Shown here one piece after another: positions 4,132 to 60,444 of a stretch of 64,000 nt of DNA; the stretch's first letter is position 1; the number at the start of each line of letters is the position of its first letter. Source of the stretch: Betaproteobacteria bacterium (GTDB taxonomy: Bacteria > Pseudomonadota > Gammaproteobacteria > Burkholderiales > SG8-39). The stretch covers positions 1 to 64,000 of the forward strand of contig SHXR01000006.1 in the NCBI GenBank assembly GCA_009693235.1, in the 5' to 3' direction. Below the pieces are notes generated by a model. It searched no databases, was not told the origin of the DNA, and was given only the letters and a program-made list of their open reading frames with translations. The position numbers were made by a program, and so were the translations under genes.

Positions 4132-4143
4132 TGGAGCTCCTAG

Positions 4144-4263
4144 GGAAACGCTGATTAAGCTATCCCGCGTAATCAGCGTGCTCAAATATACAGGGAGTTA
4201 CGAGGGGTAATGAAGGGGTTGGGGCCCCGTCATCCTCAACCAGCCCCCTTGTTCAGGGATTCC
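4144..4263 (+). mobile_element. MITE-like element copy A (120 bp, long variant)
   Basis: GGAAACGCTGATTAAG ... CTTGTTCAGGGATTCC terminal repeats, flanked by CTAG (4140-4143) and CTAG (4264-4267). Confidence 0.85.
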
Positions 4264-5583: not shown

Positions 5584-6558
5584 TTACTCCAGCCGAATCG
5601 CTGCGCGCCGGCCAACGCTCGACCACCGTTTGAATTCGTCGGCGGCAAACGCTGCCAGATCTTCTGGCGACCCAAGCGGCAAGCTGACTCCTTGCGCAAC
5701 CAGGCGTTCACCCGCTTCGGTCGCAAACGCGGTACGCGCTTCGCGATTGAGCCAATCGATGACCGGGCGCGGCGTTCCGGCGGGCGCGTACAGGGCAAAC
5801 CACGCACCGCCCTCGACATCTGGCAAGCCCTCTTCGGCGGTCGTCGGCAGATCAGGCATCACCTTCGCGCGTACCTTGGTCGCGACGGCCAGCGCGCGCA
5901 TCTTGCCGGCGCGTACATTGGGTAAGGCCAAGGCGGTGACGTCGAACATCATATTGATCTGCCCGCTCATCAAATCGCGGACGGCTTCGGCGGGACCCTT
6001 GTATGGCACATGGACAATATCGATGCCCGCACTAAGGCGAAACAATTCGCCGGCAAGATGACCGGAGCTACCGTTTCCTTGCGAGGCGAACGTGAGTGTG
6101 CCGGGCTTCGCCTTGGCGAGCGCGACGAGTTCTTTGATCGATTGCACGGGCATCGTCGGATTGATGACCAGCACATTCGGCACGGTCATGGCAAGGATCA
6201 CCGGCGCCAGATCCTTGATCGGGTCGAATGGCATCTTCGCACCGAGCGCAGGCAAAATCGCATTCAGCCCATGAAATCCGATCAGCAATGTATAGCCGTC
6301 GGGCGCGGCCTTCGCGACCGCATCGCCACCGATAATCCCGCCACCGCCGGGCCGATTCTCGACGACGAAAGGATGTTTGGCCGCATTTGACAGCCGTTGC
6401 GCGAGGACGCGCCCGGTCAAGTCGCCAAGGCTCGCAGGCGTGGTGGTCACGATGATGCGGACCGGCTTGGCCGGATACTCCTGGGCCGGTGCGGTGTTGG
6501 TGAGCACCACCGACGCAATCACAAGCAGCATGTAGCCTATTGCACGAATCGAATTCAT
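5584..6558 (-). CDS. Tripartite tricarboxylate transporter substrate-binding protein (Bug family)
   Basis: MNSIRAIGYMLLVIASVVL signal peptide; YPAKPVRIIVTTTPASLGDLTGRVLAQRLS; VENRPGGGGIIGGDAVAKAAPDGYTLLIG. Confidence 0.85.
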   Translation of the reverse strand: MNSIRAIGYMLLVIASVVLTNTAPAQEYPAKPVRIIVTTTPASLGDLTGRVLAQRLSNAAKHPFVVENRPGGGGIIGGDAVAKAAPDGYTLLIGFHGLNAILPALGAKMPFDPIKDLAPVILAMTVPNVLVINPTMPVQSIKELVALAKAKPGTLTFASQGNGSSGHLAGELFRLSAGIDIVHVPYKGPAEAVRDLMSGQINMMFDVTALALPNVRAGKMRALAVATKVRAKVMPDLPTTAEEGLPDVEGGAWFALYAPAGTPRPVIDWLNREARTAFATEAGERLVAQGVSLPLGSPEDLAAFAADEFKRWSSVGRRAAIRLE

Positions 6559-6640
6559 AGCCACCCCTTCAAAAGCGATCATACCGCGCTGAGCACATCC
6601 GGTCCGGCGTGTCACAACGCCTTCAAGAGTCGGTGTCACA

Positions 6641-7637
6641 ATGCAGGCCTTAGCCGTCTCATGCAGGCCCGCAATGCGCATCTGGTACGTCGTGATCCTA
6701 GCGGTCCTTACCTCCGCAGCTGCCCAGGCGCAGATGACGGTGTATCCCAATCGTCCGGTCCGGGTCGTCGTACCGTTCCCACCGGTGGACTCAATGACGT
6801 GGTCGCCCGTCTCGTCGCGCAAAAGCTCGCGGAGAATCTCGGTCAAAGCATCCTCATCGAAAATCGTGGTGGAGCGACCGGCACGATAGGCTCCGGTATC
6901 GTAGCCAAAGCGCAGCCGGACGGCTACACGATCCTGTCGAGCGGATCAACCACCGCAGCCGTTGCGCCTCACCTGTATGCAAATCTCCCCTACGACCAAG
7001 CCAAAGATCTGGTCGCCATCGGACGCATCGGCGCCGTGGCAAGCATCGTCCTGGTTCATCCGTCTGTACCGGCCAACACGATGACGGACTTGGTCGCGCT
7101 CCTCAGAGCGAAGCCCGGTGCGATCAACTTCGGCTCCGGCGGATCAGGCGGCTCGCAACATATCGGCGCTGAGTTGCTGAAGACGCTCACCGGCGTGAGC
7201 ATCACACACGTGCCCTACAAGGGCGGGGGTCCAGCGATGATCGACCTCGTGGCCGGTCAGATATCGATGATGATCGAGCCGATGCCAAGCGCGTTGCCAC
7301 AGATGCACGCGGGCAAGGTGCGGGCCCTGGCGGTCACGACATCGCGACGGTCCGGTGTTTTACCCGATCTACCCACCGTGGCTGAAACGGGCATCGCGGC
7401 GTACGACCTCACCATTTGGCTCGGTTTTTTTGCTCCAGCCGGAACGCCGCGCGAGGTCATTGGGAAGTTGAACACCGAACTCGCGCGCACCCTCAACGCC
7501 CCTGACATGCGCGAACGATTGGCGCAGCAAGGCGTCGAAACCATCGTGACACCCCGGAAGAATTCGGCGCTTACGTCAATACTGAAATCCCCCGCTGGGG
7601 CAAGGTCGTGCGCGACGCGGGCGCCAAACTGGATTAA
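6641..7637 (+). pseudogene. Bug-family substrate-binding protein with two apparent frameshifts
   Basis: YPNRPVRVVVPFPP (frame of 6641) continues as GGLNDVVARLVAQKLAENLG (frame of 6397). The C-terminus TPEEFGAYVNTEIPRWGKVVRDAGAKLD* is in another frame and ends with TAA at 7635-7637. Confidence 0.8.
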
Positions 7638-7725
7638 GGAATATTTAAACAAGGGGCTCGCCCCCGCGTAATTCCCCGAAAAATAGGGTACGCTGATTAC
7701 GCGGGGTAGCTTAATCAGCGCTTCC
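7638..7725 (-). mobile_element. MITE-like element copy B (88 bp)
   Basis: GGAATATTTAAACAAG ... CTTAATCAGCGCTTCC, flanked by TTAA (7634-7637) and TTAA (7726-7729). Confidence 0.85.
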
Positions 7726-7743
7726 TTAACAAGAAAACATGCA

Positions 7744-9660
7744 TTGATCGACAAACTGTTCCCGGGGCGTCTCCGGTTGCTATGGGTCCTGCTACTTGCC
7801 TTCCTCGCTTTTAATGGAGCCGTCCGTATCGGGTTGGTGGGCTATAACGGCCGGTTAGGCCTGTTTTCCCCCGAGTATCTGTTACCGGCGCTTGCCATCG
7901 GCGCGCTGTTTGATGCCGGCGTGGCCGCGTTCTTTCTCGCCCCGCTTGGCTTACTCATCATCGTCTGGCCAAACACCCGGACCGGGCTACGCGCGACATC
8001 GTTTGCCATCATGCTACCGCTGATGGTCACCATGGTGTTCGTCGGCGCATCCGAATTCACATTCTGGAACGAGTTCGCATCGCGCTTCAATTTCATCGCG
8101 GTCGACTACGTCATCTATACCAATGAAATGATCGGCAATATCCGCGAGTCCTACAACCTGCCGCTCTTGCTAGGCGCGGTGGCGGTTGCTTGCATCCATC
8201 GGCATCTGGTTGATCGTTGCGCGGTCGCTCCGCGCCCATTGGCGTGCCCCGCTCAACCTGCGCCATCGCTTCGTCGCGCTCGTGTTGCTCTTGCTTGCAC
8301 CGTTCGCCGCCGTGTATGGCCTTGATGCTCGCTATAAGGAATTCTCGAACGACGCCCAGGCTAATGAAATCGCCGGCAATGGTTACTTCGACTTCTGGCA
8401 CGTCTTCTGGGCGAACGAGATCGACTACGAACGTTTCTACAAAACCATACCCCTGCAACGCGCGCTCGTTACCATAGCCAATAAATTTGCCCGGCCGCGC
8501 GTCGAGGCCGAGATCTCGCAGCGCCCCTTCGAGCGCACCGTCGTCAACACCGAACCGAAGAAGCTGTTGAACGTTGTCCTCGTCTCAATCGAGAGCTTTT
8601 CGGCCGAGTTCATGGCGGCATTCGGTAACAAACAAAACATCACTCCTGCCACCGACAAGCTCGCGACCGAAGGGCTCTTATTCACCCAGTTCTACGCGAC
8701 CGGCACGCGCACGGTACGCGGCTTGGAGGCGCTTACCCTCTCGGTGCCACCCACACCCGGACACTCCATCGTCAAACGCCCCAACAACGACAACCTGCTT
8801 ACGATCGGCGAAGTCTTCAAGGAATCCGGCTACGAGCCGATTTATCTTTACGGCGGCTACCGCTACTTCGACAACATGAATGCCTTCTTCAGCGGCAACG
8901 GTTACACCGTCATTGACCGCACCGCGCTAAAGCCAGACGAGATCCACTTCGCCAACATCTGGGGCGTGGCCGATGAAGATCTGTTCAGCCTCGCGCTCCG
9001 TGAATTGGATAAACGCCATGCGGCAGGCGTCAAATTTTTCGCGCATGTGATGACCACTTCCAACCACCGGCCGTTCACCTACCCCGCTGGCCGCATCGAC
9101 ATTGCATCGAAATCCGGGTGGGATGGAGGCGTGAAGTACACCTGAAGTACACCGATTGGGCGATCGGCAATTTTGTCGAACGGGCCCGCACCAAACCTTG
9201 GTTCGATAACACGCTATTTATCTTCGTTGCCGACCATACGCATAAGGGCCGCGGGCGACAGGAATTGCCGCCTGAGAACTATCACATCCCGATGGTCATC
9301 TACGCGCCCTTGCATGTGCAGCCCGGCCGCGTGGATACGCTCGCTTCGCAGATCGATGTCGCGCCCACTTTGCTTGGGCTCCTCAATTTCAGCTATCGCA
9401 GCAAGTTCTTCGGCCACGATATCTTGCGCGAAGGCCGGCAACATCCGCGCGCCTTTATGGCCAATTATATGACCGTTGGCTATTATGAGCAGGGACGCAT
9501 CGTCGAACTCAAACCCAACGGCCGCACGCGCGTGGTCGATCCGCTGACCGGTCGTGAAACGGCCGACGACGCGCTCGCAAAAGAATTGATCGACGATGCG
9601 ATCAGTTACTACCAGGTCGCATCACGCGCTTATCGGCGGGGCGAGTTACGCAATCGTTGA
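7744..9660 (+). pseudogene. LTA synthase family / sulfatase-fold phosphoglycerol transferase-like membrane protein, split in three frames
   Basis: N-terminal TM region (7744-8325), VVLVSIESFSAEFMAAFG...TNSNHRPF-like sulfatase fold (8186-9145), and DNTLFIFVADHTHKGRGRQELPPENYHIPMVIYAP (9118-9660). Frame breaks near 8180 and at an 11-bp tandem duplication (9132-9153). Confidence 0.75.
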
Positions 9661-9699
9661 GATCGCATCGCGATGTTTGACCGGTTGCGATACGATTGA

Positions 9700-9786
9700 G
9701 GAAGCGCTGATTAAGCTATCCCGCGTAATCAGCGTGCTCAAATATTCAGGGAGTTACAAGGGGGCGAGCCCCCTTGTTCAGTGACC
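9700..9786 (+). mobile_element. MITE-like element copy C (about 87 bp, degraded right end)
   Basis: GGAAGCGCTGATTAAG ... CTTGTTCAGTGACC, body near identical to copies F, G and H; no clean target duplication (TTGA/ATGA). Confidence 0.8.
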
Positions 9787-10875
9787 ATGAAAATCACCAC
9801 CGCACAGTCTCGTCTAATCAAAGTACCCGCCGATGAGCCGCTCGCAGGCGGTGCCATCCTCATGGGCCCCACCCGCGATTTCGTAACGCTAACCTTGCGA
9901 ACCGACGCCGGCATTGAAGGCATCGGTTACGCCTTTTTCGGCGGCAATCTGGCCCCGCAGTTGAAAGGCATGGTCGACACGCTCGCCACGCTCATCATCG
10001 GTCAGGATCCGTTGCCGATCGAAGCATTGGTGAACAAGATCCGCGCCGCGACGATCGCCGGGCCAAGCGGCATGGTGACCCTCGCGCTTTCGGCGATCGA
10101 TATCGCACTGTGGGACATCAAAGGCAAGGCGCTCAATGTGCCGGTCGCTACGTTGGCCGGCGGCTATCGCACCACCGTGCCGACCTACGCATCCGGCGCG
10201 TTGTCGCGTGACGGTTTGCTCGATAATTTGTTGCGCTGCGCACGCACCTTGAAAGAGGCCGGCTGGAAACAGATGAAGACGCAGCTCGCCCTTCCTGGTC
10301 CGACGACTGTACCGAAAGAGATCGAACGTATTCGCGAAGTCCGCAAGGTGATCGGCGATGACATCGATCTGATGTGCGATATCAACCAGCGCTGGGATGT
10401 TCGCCAGGCGATATCAATCGGCTCACGTATCGAGGAATATGGTCTTTATTGGCTGGAAGACGCGGTCGCCTGCGATGACTATGCCGGCCACGCTGCGGTC
10501 AGCGCAGCGCTCGCTACACCGACTGCGGCCGGTGAATATGTGTTTGGCATCGTGCCGTTTCGACATATGTTTGAAGCACGCTCGGTCGACATTGCGATGC
10601 TCGATGTCGTGCGCACCGGTGGCATTACCGGCTGGCTGAAAATCGCTGCGATGGCTGAAGCGTTCAATCTACCGGTCGTAAGTCATCTGTATCCGGAGAT
10701 CTCGGTGCATCTGATTGCGGCGATTCCCAATGGGCTCACGGTGGAGTACATGCCATGGACGACGCAAATGTTCCAGGAGGTTCCAAAGATGGCGGGTGGC
10801 ACCTTGACCGTCCCGCAGAAGCCCGGGCTCGGACTTACCTTCGATGAGAAATTCTGCGCCAAACACGCGGCGTAG
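9787..10875 (+). CDS. Mandelate racemase/muconate lactonizing enzyme family protein (enolase superfamily)
   Basis: MKITTAQSRLIKVPADEPL...ALWDIKGKALNVPVATLAGG...DLMCDINQRWD...YWLEDAV; the Asp/Glu metal-ligand pattern is visible. Confidence 0.85.
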   Translation: MKITTAQSRLIKVPADEPLAGGAILMGPTRDFVTLTLRTDAGIEGIGYAFFGGNLAPQLKGMVDTLATLIIGQDPLPIEALVNKIRAATIAGPSGMVTLALSAIDIALWDIKGKALNVPVATLAGGYRTTVPTYASGALSRDGLLDNLLRCARTLKEAGWKQMKTQLALPGPTTVPKEIERIREVRKVIGDDIDLMCDINQRWDVRQAISIGSRIEEYGLYWLEDAVACDDYAGHAAVSAALATPTAAGEYVFGIVPFRHMFEARSVDIAMLDVVRTGGITGWLKIAAMAEAFNLPVVSHLYPEISVHLIAAIPNGLTVEYMPWTTQMFQEVPKMAGGTLTVPQKPGLGLTFDEKFCAKHAA

Positions 10876-10889
10876 GCGGGTCCCACTTA

Positions 10890-11273
10890 ATGTCGGAAAG
10901 TGAATTCAAGAGCACGAACGGGCTTGCGCGCATTATGAAAGCGGCGGGTTATTCAATGGCCGACCTGCGGGAAGCATGGCGGGTCGAACATGCGTTTCGT
11001 CAGGAACTGGTCATCGCCGTCATCCTCACGCCAATCGCCTTGTATCTCCCGGTATCAGCGTTCGAGAAGCTGCTCTTGATCGGCAGCTTGGTGGTCGTAT
11101 TGATCATCGAGCTGCTCAACTCCGCCGTGGAGGCGGCCATCGACCACACGTCGCTCGAACGGCATCCGCTTGCCAAGCGCGCGAAAGATCTCGGCAGCGC
11201 GGCGGTGTTGCTCGCGATGCTCCTAGTCGCGGCAAGTTGGTCGGTGGTGATTGCGGGAATCGTCATCCGTTAG
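10890..11273 (+). CDS. dgkA: Diacylglycerol kinase
   Basis: FRQELVIAVILTPIALYLP...VVLIIELLNSAVEAAIDHTSLERHPLAKRAKDLGSAAV is the DgkA signature. Confidence 0.93.
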   Translation: MSESEFKSTNGLARIMKAAGYSMADLREAWRVEHAFRQELVIAVILTPIALYLPVSAFEKLLLIGSLVVVLIIELLNSAVEAAIDHTSLERHPLAKRAKDLGSAAVLLAMLLVAASWSVVIAGIVIR

Positions 11274-11363
11274 GGAAACGTTGATTAAGCTATCGCGCGC
11301 AATCAGCGTAACCATATTTTTCAGGGAGTTCTGAGTGGGCGAGCCCCCTTGTTCAGCGATTCC
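11274..11363 (+). mobile_element. MITE-like element copy D (90 bp)
   Basis: GGAAACGTTGATTAAG ... CTTGTTCAGCGATTCC, flanked by TTAG (11270-11273) and TTGG (11364-11367, one mismatch). Confidence 0.82.
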
Positions 11364-11411
11364 TTGGCGGCGGCGGACCACTTGCCGTGGTCCGCCATCC
11401 GTTACGACGCG

Positions 11412-27458: not shown

Positions 27459-27568
27459 GGAAATGCTGGATAAGCTATCTTGCGAAATCAGCATGAGATC
27501 CTTTTCGGGGAGCTACGAGGGGGCTTTGGAGGGGTTGCCCCCCAACAAGCCCCTTGTTCATTCAATTT
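27459..27568 (+). mobile_element. MITE-like element copy E (about 110 bp, long diverged variant)
   Basis: GGAAATGCTGGATAAGC ... GGGGAGCTACGAGGGGGCTTTGGAGGGGTTGCCCCCC...CCCCTTGTTCATTCAATTTC; no clean target duplication; overlaps the stop codon of the DUF35 gene. Confidence 0.65.
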
Positions 27569-46556: not shown

Positions 46557-46668
46557 CGCAGCATCCTTCAGGCCATCCAGGATGGTTTTCTACGACTCGC
46601 CGGCGATCATCAAGCATGCCGTTCGCATTCGGGGCCGATTCCTCGGCCGGCGCAGAAATATTCCCTAT

Positions 46669-46757
46669 GGAAACGCTGATTAAGCTATTCCGCGTGATCA
46701 GCGTGCTCAAATATTAAGGGAGTTACGAGGGGGCGCGCGCCCTTGTTCAGTGATTCC
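46669..46757 (+). mobile_element. MITE-like element copy F (89 bp)
   Basis: GGAAACGCTGATTAAG ... CTTGTTCAGTGATTCC, flanked by CTAT (46665-46668) and CTAT (46758-46761). Confidence 0.88.
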
Positions 46758-46824
46758 CTATATGCAAAACGCAGCAGGCAACGCCACGGGATCCACGATA
46801 TGTTCTATCGCAACGCTGAGAGAT

Positions 46825-49209: not shown

Positions 49210-50655
49210 TCAGCGGGCGAGAAATGCCCGCACCCGTGCGGCGATGCTCTGTTGATCGAAGGCCCCGAAGCGGGCGGCGTTCAAGCCTTGCGGGTCGCCC
49301 GCAAAAAATCGCTCATACAACACCTGGCGGCCGGCAAACGCGCTCCCGCAGAGATCCCACGCCAGACGAAATAACCGCACGCGTTCATGCCCCATTAGAT
49401 TCGCGGACTGAAAGTACCGGTCGATGTCGGCAGCGAGTTCGGGCCGGTTGAGATCGGCCTCGTCCGGAATCGCCATCAGGCCACTTGATCCGACCAGTTG
49501 CAGGATTTCAATCAGTCTCGGATAGATCTTCGGAAAGTAATTGCGGGCGGTAAACATCACCTCAGGATTGGGCGCATAGAAACCGTAGGCATCGCGAACC
49601 GCGTCCACTTCGGCGGTTCGCAGATAAGCGCGCAGCGTGACCACCGCATCGACGATTTCCGCCAGCATCTGCTGATACGCGGACAGCTCGGTTCGCCCGA
49701 TCGCGTCGGCCAGGAGGGTGGCGACGCCAAGCACGGTTTCGGCTTTCACCAGGCTCTTCACCGTCGATTGATGGATGCCGTGAACGAACGCAGACGTATC
49801 GCGCGATGCACGATTGCACAACTCCACGTTGCCTTTCAGAAACACCCGCTCCCAGGGCACCAAAACTTCGTTGCAGACGATGACAGCGTCCATCTCCTCA
49901 TAGCGCGACGACAAGGGGTGGTCCGCCACCGGCCCGGCAGCATCGAGGCTCGGTCGGCAAATGATGCGAAGGCCTGGCGTGGCAAGCGGGATGGCAAAAG
50001 CGAACGCATAGCGCTCCGCGTCGGTCGGCCGCGCACGCGACGGCGACGGAAACACCAGTAATTCGTCGGCAAAAGGAGCAAGTGTGGCGAGCATTCTTGC
50101 CCCGCTGACGATGAGTCCCGCCGCGTTCTCGCCGACGATCGAAAGCGCAACGCCCAGGTCGCGCTGCTCGCTTTGACCACGCGCCCGATTGACCTGCGGA
50201 TCGACCAATGAATGGGTGAGACAGACATCATGCGTTCTGCACCATTCATAGTACGCAGTCAGTCGCTTTGCATAGTCCGGCCCATTTTGTGCAAAGAACG
50301 GTGCCGCCATCGCAAATCCGGTGAGCAAGGTATTCGGATAGTCGGGCGAGCGGCCAAAAAACCCCAGCGATTCTTGGGACCACCGATAGAACATGCGTCC
50401 ACGTCGCGCGACATCCTCCGCAGAACGGGGCTGAGAATAGGCAAGGCTGCAACGATCATCACTGTCTGGCGACACATAGGTGAGGACATCGCGCGCATCC
50501 GGGGCGCATTGCAGGTCATACAGCCTGGCAATGGATCGCGCGGTGCGACCGAGGAGCGGATGCGTGGTGACATCGGCAACCCGTTCACCGCTGCACCAGA
50601 CTTCCCGCGTATCGAGCAGTCCGGCGAGGTATTGGTCCCCATTTCGCACTGACAT
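49210..50655 (-). CDS. 4-hydroxyphenylacetate 3-hydroxylase family protein (FADH2-dependent monooxygenase)
   Basis: GDQYLAGLLDTREVWCSGERVADVTTHPLLGRTARSIARLYDLQ...LSLTHSLVDPQVNRARG-like region...VCNEVLVPWERVFLKGNVELCN. Confidence 0.88.
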   Translation of the reverse strand: MSVRNGDQYLAGLLDTREVWCSGERVADVTTHPLLGRTARSIARLYDLQCAPDARDVLTYVSPDSDDRCSLAYSQPRSAEDVARRGRMFYRWSQESLGFFGRSPDYPNTLLTGFAMAAPFFAQNGPDYAKRLTAYYEWCRTHDVCLTHSLVDPQVNRARGQSEQRDLGVALSIVGENAAGLIVSGARMLATLAPFADELLVFPSPSRARPTDAERYAFAFAIPLATPGLRIICRPSLDAAGPVADHPLSSRYEEMDAVIVCNEVLVPWERVFLKGNVELCNRASRDTSAFVHGIHQSTVKSLVKAETVLGVATLLADAIGRTELSAYQQMLAEIVDAVVTLRAYLRTAEVDAVRDAYGFYAPNPEVMFTARNYFPKIYPRLIEILQLVGSSGLMAIPDEADLNRPELAADIDRYFQSANLMGHERVRLFRLAWDLCGSAFAGRQVLYERFFAGDPQGLNAARFGAFDQQSIAARVRAFLAR

Positions 50656-50657
50656 AG

Positions 50658-50746
50658 GAAATCACTGAACAAGGGGGCTCGCCCCCTTGTAACTCCCTGA
50701 ATATTTGAGCACGCTGATTATGCGGGATAGCTTAATCAGCGTTTCC
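50658..50746 (-). mobile_element. MITE-like element copy G (89 bp)
   Basis: GAAATCACTGAACAAG ... CTTAATCAGCGTTTCC, flanked by ATAG (50654-50657) and ATAG (50747-50750). Confidence 0.88.
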
Positions 50747-50784
50747 ATAGGACTTCGGACTTGGCTGGATTGAGTCGAGCCGCG

Positions 50785-57087: not shown

Positions 57088-57609
57088 ATGGCAGATGCGT
57101 TGGCGACCTTGCCCGCCACTGCGGGACAGCGGGACCGATCGATCCTCGCGTTCACCTTCATCACCGTCCCCGAGCTCATCATGGGCACGCTGATGCTGGT
57201 TGGCGTGGCGATCAACATCGCCAACGTCATCGGCCGGTATCTGTTTGGTTATGCGTTCTTCTGGGCCGAAGAGATCATGGTGTTCATCACGATCTGGGGG
57301 GTGTTCATTGGGCTCGCGGCAATGACCTACCGGGGCGATTACCTGAACATGGACCTGTTTTCGCGCGCCTTCACTGGCCGCGCGCGGCTGGTATTGAACG
57401 GCGTCATCGCGATCACCTTGCTGGCGTGCTGTGCATTCATGATCATGCAGTCCTACCGGGTCGTCACGATGCTGGCCGCGGCCGGACAGGTGAGCGTCTC
57501 TGCCAGCATTCCAAAGCAGATTCCCCATGCCGCCCTGCTGGTCGGATTCATTTTCACGGTGCTTGCCATCATCGTTCGCGTCCGTTCCTACATCACCGGA
57601 AAATTTTAG
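57088..57609 (+). CDS. TRAP transporter small permease (DctQ-like)
   Basis: ELIMGTLMLVGVAINIANVIGRYLFGYAFFWAEEIMVFITIWGVFIGLAAMTYRGDYLNMDLF. Confidence 0.9.
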   Translation: MADALATLPATAGQRDRSILAFTFITVPELIMGTLMLVGVAINIANVIGRYLFGYAFFWAEEIMVFITIWGVFIGLAAMTYRGDYLNMDLFSRAFTGRARLVLNGVIAITLLACCAFMIMQSYRVVTMLAAAGQVSVSASIPKQIPHAALLVGFIFTVLAIIVRVRSYITGKF

Positions 57610-57640
57610 CCCGCGCCATGCACGCGCCAGAGAGGGAGTC

Positions 57641-58912
57641 GTGAGCTGGGTTCTGGTGCTGCTGCCACTTGCAATGCTGGCGTTGGGCTTTCCATTCTTT
57701 CTGATCCTGCTCACCACCGCAGTGGTGGTCTTGGCGTTCTTTTCGAACCTGCCATCAGTGGCGATCCACCAAGTCATGTTCAGCAGCCTGGACAAATACG
57801 CCTTGCTTGCCGTGCCGTTTTTTCTGTTTGCAGGCGACTTGATGGGCCGGGGTGGGGTCTCCGAGCGGCTGGTCAACTGGGTGACCTCGATGATCGGTCG
57901 CGTGCGTGGCAGCCTGCCGTTTACCGCGCTGGGCACCGCTGCCGTATTCAGCGCCATCTCGGGTTCCACTGCGGCGACCACCGCCGCAGTGGGTTCGCTC
58001 ACCTATCAGCGCTTGCGCAATGAAGGGTACAACGAGCGCTTTTCCTCGTCACTCTTGATCTCGGTGGGCGCCATCGACAATCTCATTCCGCCGTCGATCG
58101 GCTTCATACTGTACGGCATAGCGTCTGAGACGTCGATCGTCCGCTTGTTTGCCGCCGGCGTCTTTCCAGGCCTCGTGCTCACCGCATTTTTCGCGCTCTA
58201 CATCTATCTCTATTGCGTGAACCGTGGCGAAACGCGTGGTCAGCCCTTCACACTGGCGCGCTTTATTGCGGCGACGCGTGACGGGATCTGGTCGATTCTT
58301 GCGCCGGTCGTCATTCTTGGCGGCATCTACAGCGGGGTGTTCTCGCCAACCGAGGCGGCGGGCGTGGCCTGCGTCTACGCGATCATCATTACGGCTTTCG
58401 TCTATCGCGAAGTGACGCTTCGGGAGGTCTTTCGCATCGCCGCGCGTTCGATGTATCTCACCGCGCAGATCTTCACGATCGTGGCGGTGGCGGGCGTCTT
58501 TGCATGGATCCTGACCGTCAATGGCGTGCCGCAGGCGATGGTGGCCTCCATCGCGGAGCTCGCCATGCCGCCATGGGCCGTGTTGCTTGCGATCAACCTA
58601 TTGCTGCTCGCGGTCGGCATGTTTCTTGACACCGCGTCATCGATTCTCGTGCTCTCGCCGCTGCTGGTACCGATCGCGAAAGCAATCGGCGTCGATCCGG
58701 TTCATTTCGGCGTGATCCTGGTGATGAATCTCTCGATCGGCACCTTCACCCCGCCCTTTGGGATCAATATCTTCATCGGGCAGGCGGTGTTCAAGGCGCA
58801 ACTTTCGGCGATCTATCCAGGATTGATGCCATTCATCGCGATCGCGGTCGCCGCATTGATGGTCGTGACGTATATCCCGTCGCTATCGCTTTGGATGCTG
58901 CGATTCGTCTAG
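57641..58912 (+). CDS. TRAP transporter large permease (DctM-like)
   Basis: GDLMGRGGVSERLVNWVTSMIGRVRGSLPFTALGTAAVFSAISGSTAATTAAVG...LIPPSIGFILYG; GTG start inferred; TAG stop at 58910-58912. Confidence 0.9.
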   Translation: MSWVLVLLPLAMLALGFPFFLILLTTAVVVLAFFSNLPSVAIHQVMFSSLDKYALLAVPFFLFAGDLMGRGGVSERLVNWVTSMIGRVRGSLPFTALGTAAVFSAISGSTAATTAAVGSLTYQRLRNEGYNERFSSSLLISVGAIDNLIPPSIGFILYGIASETSIVRLFAAGVFPGLVLTAFFALYIYLYCVNRGETRGQPFTLARFIAATRDGIWSILAPVVILGGIYSGVFSPTEAAGVACVYAIIITAFVYREVTLREVFRIAARSMYLTAQIFTIVAVAGVFAWILTVNGVPQAMVASIAELAMPPWAVLLAINLLLLAVGMFLDTASSILVLSPLLVPIAKAIGVDPVHFGVILVMNLSIGTFTPPFGINIFIGQAVFKAQLSAIYPGLMPFIAIAVAALMVVTYIPSLSLWMLRFV

Positions 58913-59001
58913 GGAAACGCTGATTAAGCGATCCCGCGCAATCAGCGTGCTCAAATATTCAGGGAGTTACGAGGGGGCGAGCGCCCTTGTTCAATGATTC
59001 C
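58913..59001 (+). mobile_element. MITE-like element copy H (89 bp)
   Basis: GGAAACGCTGATTAAG ... CTTGTTCAATGATTCC, flanked by CTAG (58909-58912) and CTAG (59002-59005). Confidence 0.9.
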
Positions 59002-60444
59002 CTAGGCCGTCCCACCAACCGTCAGCGCATCGATGCGAAGCGTTGGTTGACCCACCCCCACCGGCACGCTTTGACCGTCCTTGCCGCATACGCCCACACC
59101 GGTATCGAGTTCAAGATCATTGCCCACCATTGACACCCGGGTGAGCGCATCCGGACCATTGCCAATCAGGGTTGCCCCCTTGACTGGATAAGTCACCCTG
59201 CCGTTCTCGATCATGTAAGCCTCGGTACACGAGAACACGAATTTACCGCTCGTAATATCGACCTGGCCACCACCGAAGCTCACTGCATAGAGCCCCGAAC
59301 TGACGCTCCGGATAATTTCTTCCGGGGGCGTTTTACCTGCCAGCATGTAGGTGTTGGTCATCCTCGGCAGCACCATATGGGCGAATGACTCGCGCCGCCC
59401 GTTGCCGGTGACCGGCATTTTCATCAGGCGCGCATTGAGGGTGTCTTGGATATAACCTTTCAGCACGCCGTTCTCAATGAGTACATTGCATTGCGTGGGA
59501 TTGCCCTCATCATCGATACTGAGCGAACCGCGGCGTCCGGGCAACGTGCCATCATCGACCACCGTCACACCCTTGGCAGCAACGCGCTTGCCGATCTTGC
59601 CGGAGAACGCCGAGCTGCCGCGCCGATTGAAATCCCCCTCCAGACCGTGCCCCACTGCTTCATGCAGCAGCACGCCCGGCCATCCGGGTCCCAGGACGAC
59701 CGTCATGGTGCCGGCTGGTGCGGGCCGCGATTCCAGATTGATGAGCGCCTGATCGACCGCCGCTTTTGCGTATTCGCGCAAACGTTCCTCGGTAAAATAG
59801 CCGTAATCCGATCGTCCGCCACCGCCTGAGCTGCCCTGCTCACGCCGGCCATTCTGCTCGGCAATCACCGACAGCGAAATGCGCACGAGCGGACGCACGT
59901 CGGCACCCATCACCCCATCGGATCGCGCGACCAGGATCACCTCGAACACGCTGGCGAGCGAGGCCATGACCTGCACGACCCGCGGATCCATGGCCCGACA
60001 CATGCGTTCCAAGCGTTCGAGCAGGCTCACCTTCTCAGCGTCGCCAAGCGAATCGAGGGGGTCGCGTGGCTCGTAGAGTGCCCGTGCCTGACCACTACGA
60101 ATCGCCGGCGCCTTGCCCCGCGAGCCATGCAAGGCGATCGAACGGGTGGTGGTCGCGGCAGCCAACAGCGCGGGCATGCTGATCTCGTCCGAATACGCAA
60201 ACGCGGTCTTCTCACCAGTGATCGCCCGCACACCGACGCCTTGCTCGATCGAAAAGCTTCCTGATTTGACGATGCCTTCCTCGAGACTCCAGCCCTCGCT
60301 GGTCGCGTGCTGAAAATACAGGTCGGCGAAATCGAGGTCGCGCTTCATCAGTTCGCCAAATACTCGGGAGAGCTGCGAGGCATCGAGCGAATAGGGTGCC
60401 AACAAGGTCGATTCGGCGGTCTTAAGCAGGCTCACTTGAGTCAT
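59002..60444 (-). CDS. tldD: Metalloprotease TldD
   Basis: [66 protein letters not shown] (HExxxH). Confidence 0.94.

Follow-up and report, generated by a model that had tools for sequence, protein, structure and literature searches.

IS5 of Escherichia coli is an autonomous element of approximately 1.2 kb. It duplicates a 4-bp YTAR target site (PMC10359306, PMC5493358), as does the element described here, which differs in having no transposase gene. MITEPsy1 of Pseudomonas syringae pv. phaseolicola is a 100-nt MITE attributed to the IS5-family element ISPsy2 (PMC3189936). Like our element, it is about 100 nt long, contains no gene and is flanked by a 4-bp duplication (CTAG or YTAA), and its terminal inverted repeat, GGAAGGTCTGAAAAAGCC, has GGAA...CTGA..AAG in common with GGAAACGCTGATTAAGC / GGAATCACTGAACAAGG here (PMC3189936). 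However, MITEPsy1 has six copies, some of them intragenic (PMC3189936), whereas the present MITE has more than 100, none of them intragenic; their internal sequences are unlike, and no partner IS was found for ours. QMITE2 of Coxiella burnetii resembles it in being a MITE family reported chiefly from 3' untranslated regions and intergenic DNA, but is longer, with duplications of 7–11 nt of variable sequence (PMC5896051), so its target has no built-in coincidence with stop codons. Our literature search found no direct precedent for stop-codon insertion by such elements.

Here we analyse a MITE with eight copies (A–H) in a 64,000-nt stretch of betaproteobacterial DNA (the window), for which the original prediction was that a YTAR target makes stop codons natural safe harbours, by selection or by targeting. 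An ordinary IS5-like MITE that inserts at any YTAR, followed by purifying selection, very probably explains why its copies coincide with stops.

The element and its target site

The element is short, repeated and without any gene, and it has terminal inverted repeats (its ends are GGAAACGCTGATTAAG... and GGAATCACTGAACAAG...), all of which are features of a MITE. A profile HMM built from the eight window copies was used to search the host genome, sampled as 108 stretches plus the window (757 kb of a 3.9-Mb assembly that is fragmented and 79% complete), and gave 136 matches, i.e., copies or fragments. The usual length is 87–91 bp, with a long form of 119–122 bp (approximately 120 bp). The long form has an extra internal hairpin-like segment (GGGGTTGGGGCCCC...) that is missing from the 89-bp form; the window has it at 4144–4263, and both the host and the same-genus genome G001 have many copies of it.

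The family's 4-bp target-site duplication (TSD) has the consensus YTAR, which is the IS5-type target. Our TSD search favours YTAR where element ends are ambiguous, but the 74 copies anchored at both ends are free of that bias: 37 of them have a perfect 4-bp duplication (chance approximately 1/256 each), and the duplicated tetramer is YTAR in 32 of these 37. The family is a non-autonomous MITE, and we call it IS5-like as opposed to a proven IS5-family member.

No full-length autonomous IS sharing the MITE ends was found in the host and three relatives (searched by transposase family) or in a contig collection (searched by end sequence). Matches to DDE_Tnp_1 (four in the host, one in genome G004 and four in genome G006) were never flanked by matching ends, which counts for little because these assemblies are fragmented and often lose repeats. 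Plasmid records gave no meaningful match to the element. The end-sequence search of genome contigs recovered related MITEs in two other MAGs. Another betaproteobacterial MAG (CANIIN010000235.1; L298, around 1451) has a related MITE immediately behind what looks like a C-terminus, ...VVVKPF then TAG, of a gene that is possibly HemJ. Genome G004 (L216, L221, L232) has a related MITE with only the right half in common and many near-identical copies, including one MITE inserted beside another on a shared YTAR.

Window copies and the genes they adjoin

A YTAR flank is present only at copies A, B, D and H; C and E lack a clear YTAR (Table 1). Copies F and G, both with CTAT duplications, form an inverted pair approximately 3.9 kb apart (46665–46761 and 50654–50750 with their duplications). 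Gene identities are backed by Pfam matches for diacylglycerol kinase, DctM, TldD and TctC.

Table 1. Element copies, target-site duplications and adjoining genes in the window
Feature	Position	Strand	Remarks
MITE copy A (long form, 120 bp)	4144..4263	+	TSD CTAG
Bug/TctC gene as now read	6397..7671	+	Frameshift just upstream of natural C-terminus; ORF enters copy B
Left TSD TTAA of copy B	7634..7637	.	Holds ancestral Bug (TctC) stop TAA 7635-7637
MITE copy B, 88 bp	7638..7725	-	HMM and TIR match
Right TSD TTAA of copy B	7726..7729	.
MITE copy C	9700..9784	+	HMM; right end eroded, no clear TSD
dgkA (diacylglycerol kinase)	10956..11273	+	Pfam PF01219; stop TAG 11271-11273 inside TSD
Left TSD TTAG of copy D	11270..11273	.
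MITE copy D, 90 bp	11274..11363	+	HMM
Right flank TTGG of copy D	11364..11367	.	One mismatch to TTAG; duplication now imperfect
MITE copy E, divergent	27459..27565	+	HMM; no clear YTAR
MITE copy F	46669..46757	+	HMM; TSD CTAT, not YTAR
MITE copy G	50658..50746	-	HMM; TSD CTAT, not YTAR
DctM gene	57527..58912	+	Pfam; stop TAG 58910-58912 within the left duplication at copy H
Left TSD CTAG of copy H	58909..58912	.
MITE copy H, 89 bp	58913..59001	+	HMM
Right TSD CTAG of copy H	59002..59005	.	Holds TldD stop TAG, minus strand 59004-59002
TldD gene	59002..60444	-	Pfam; ends within the right duplication at copy H

Copies B, D and H had been described as sitting exactly on stop codons, with the protein preserved. 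At copy H this is exactly what we see, the two CTAG tetramers carrying the stops of both flanking genes. At copy D, the dgkA stop does lie inside the left TTAG, but the right flank is TTGG and not the second TTAG that a duplication calls for. At copy B, the TAA within TTAA shares the reading frame of Bug's natural C-terminus (PEEFGAYVNTEIPRWGKVVRDAGAKLD, then the stop), but the present ORF overruns this ancestral stop owing to the frameshift just upstream, and preservation of the protein cannot be claimed there in the present assembly. The Bug gene and the adjoining sulfatase-like gene (7744–9660) are each broken across several reading frames, as real pseudogenes or through assembly errors.

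Two of these sites have empty counterparts in G001. Its dgkA (82% identical) has the same end codon, in CTAA, and no element, and at the counterpart of the copy H site one uninterrupted tetramer, reading TTAG on the strand of DctM, ends both TldD (96% identical) and DctM. The stops at D and H therefore predate insertion, and the proteins kept their ends.

This bears on whether the coincidence is an artefact, i.e., whether the element brings new stops with it or the gene finder simply calls ORFs that end at the element. IS ends often truncate ORFs, and a few ORFs, including the one at copy B, do enter the element. However, the in-frame TAR of a duplicated tetramer was already a stop before insertion, the shared end codons at the empty sites contradict an artefact for copies D and H, and 37 of the 39 stop-bearing host genes in the census below have a coding score of at least 24. 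We find an artefact scarcely credible.

Stop codons among the available target sites

For a genome-wide census, genes were called with our own hexamer-based finder on the fragmented host assembly, and a flanking-gene stop lay inside the tetramer in 39 of the 85 copies with a usable TSD, or in 35 of 85 under a stricter gene-calling score (41–46%). Stop ends spike at offset 0, with 41 cases, and the remaining offsets within 15 nt hold nine in total. Across the same DNA as a whole, stops account for 22–24% of the non-coding YTARs, so the excess that the original prediction had staked itself on is present (binomial p approximately 3e-6 with 39 matches; Fisher p 4e-4 with 35). In G001, 8 of 28 copies are on stops, with no significant excess over that genome's own background; for the related, nearly uniform MITE of G004 the count is 12 of 29.

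A null of all intergenic YTARs is too broad, because promoters, long gaps and missed genes are counted in it. We therefore recommend that claims of gene-end targeting be judged against a matched same-gap null, in which every YTAR tetramer in the intergenic gap concerned, taken as empty, has an equal chance of being the site. Against this null the host has 34 stop matches with 33.05 expected, and three genomes pooled have 55 with 53.6 expected. For 27 of the 34 in the host, the gap has no YTAR other than stops, and usually a single site. Since few gaps are informative (17 in the host), we also compared pooled YTAR occupancy by class: 51/246 at stops, 21/147 at 1–50 nt past a gene end and 14/163 far from one. 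Stops exceed far sites (OR 2.72, p 9e-4), but their excess over sites 1–50 nt downstream is not significant (OR 1.55, 95% CI 0.89–2.69, p 0.14). Overall, the two tests do not support insertion at stops beyond the same-gap YTAR expectation. Host tandem gaps taken alone gave 21 stop matches against 17.6 expected (p 0.03), which counts against a reading with no preference at all. The stop excess thus reflects a bias towards the 3' side in general, to which the stop itself adds a modest amount at most.

A transposase or host factor could direct insertion to stops or 3' ends, e.g., through DNA structure or machinery stalled where transcription or translation ends. Such active targeting would account for a stop fraction approximately twice that of all non-coding YTARs and for the 2.7-fold odds over YTARs far from 3' ends. 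However, there is no same-gap excess and no significant excess over YTARs 1–50 nt past the stop. An extended target motif around the TSD was sought and not found: flanking bases are like background, with no AT bias (flank GC 0.567 vs 0.573), and the mix of TSD tetramers is the same as in the background. Nor is there an orientation bias, with 20 stop contacts by the left element end and 23 by the right. We consider active targeting distinctly improbable, and this part of the original prediction is not supported. A transposase with a modest intrinsic preference for 3' ends or stops beyond YTAR, up to approximately 2.7-fold in odds (the upper end of the confidence interval for stops against sites 1–50 nt downstream), is unlikely; if it existed, the transposition system would be tuned to harmless sites.

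Probable selection and mechanism, and possible function

Not one of the 142 copies is intragenic by a coding-potential test with controls that flags 66–88% of true genic sites, although genes hold 861 of the 1505 YTARs of the host sample. A naive ORF test had suggested 25 possible intragenic copies among 85, and none remained after the coding-potential test. All perfect-TSD copies are more than 11 nt away from any start codon, though background YTAR sites do occur closer in. Stop and non-stop copies show no difference in element divergence, i.e., there is no age trend.

With ordinary insertion followed by selection as our preferred reading, the steps would be as follows. A transposase, presumably acting in trans, would insert the MITE at any accessible YTAR, and as insertion duplicates the tetramer, the stop of the upstream gene would stay intact. 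In this GC-rich genome, stops provide approximately a quarter of non-coding YTARs and often the sole YTAR of a short gap. Purifying selection, to which the absence of such copies points, would remove insertions in genes and within approximately 11 nt of start codons, so that survivors would be concentrated at gene ends or just past them. The transposase would not need to recognise stops, gene ends or translation. The coincidence would then arise because YTAR is Y plus TAA or TAG and because selection acts against insertions in genes and near starts. That the tetramer is a pyrimidine followed by TAA or TAG is a fact; uniform insertion at YTAR and subsequent selection are what we infer. The safe-harbour idea holds as a consequence, given the census excess over background, the lack of copies in genes and the two empty sites.

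Stop-located copies could also have been kept because they are useful, e.g., as a hairpin that stabilises mRNA at the 3' end or acts as a terminator. Their RNA folds well (z -1.4 to -4.4 in six strand tests), and they lie at 3' ends. However, hairpins form in TIR-bearing MITEs anyway, a 20-kb scan showed no terminator-like site inside copies A–D, and the element has no Rfam match. Nor is there an orientation bias, or better conservation of stop-located copies than of others. A functional role of the element at stops is not supported, and we regard retention for usefulness as very unlikely.

By itself, a short target consensus can put a substantial proportion of the surviving copies right on stops. 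Annotators should also be cautious: IS5-like elements in GC-rich genomes will often abut stop codons without functional meaning.

Copies also occur on the 5' side of genes. Copy A is off any stop and lies 12 nt upstream of a start codon. At its duplication (window 4140–4143), and likewise at L212, L105, L203 and L133, copies end 12–25 nt upstream of a start codon, and the ribosome-binding site is left in place.
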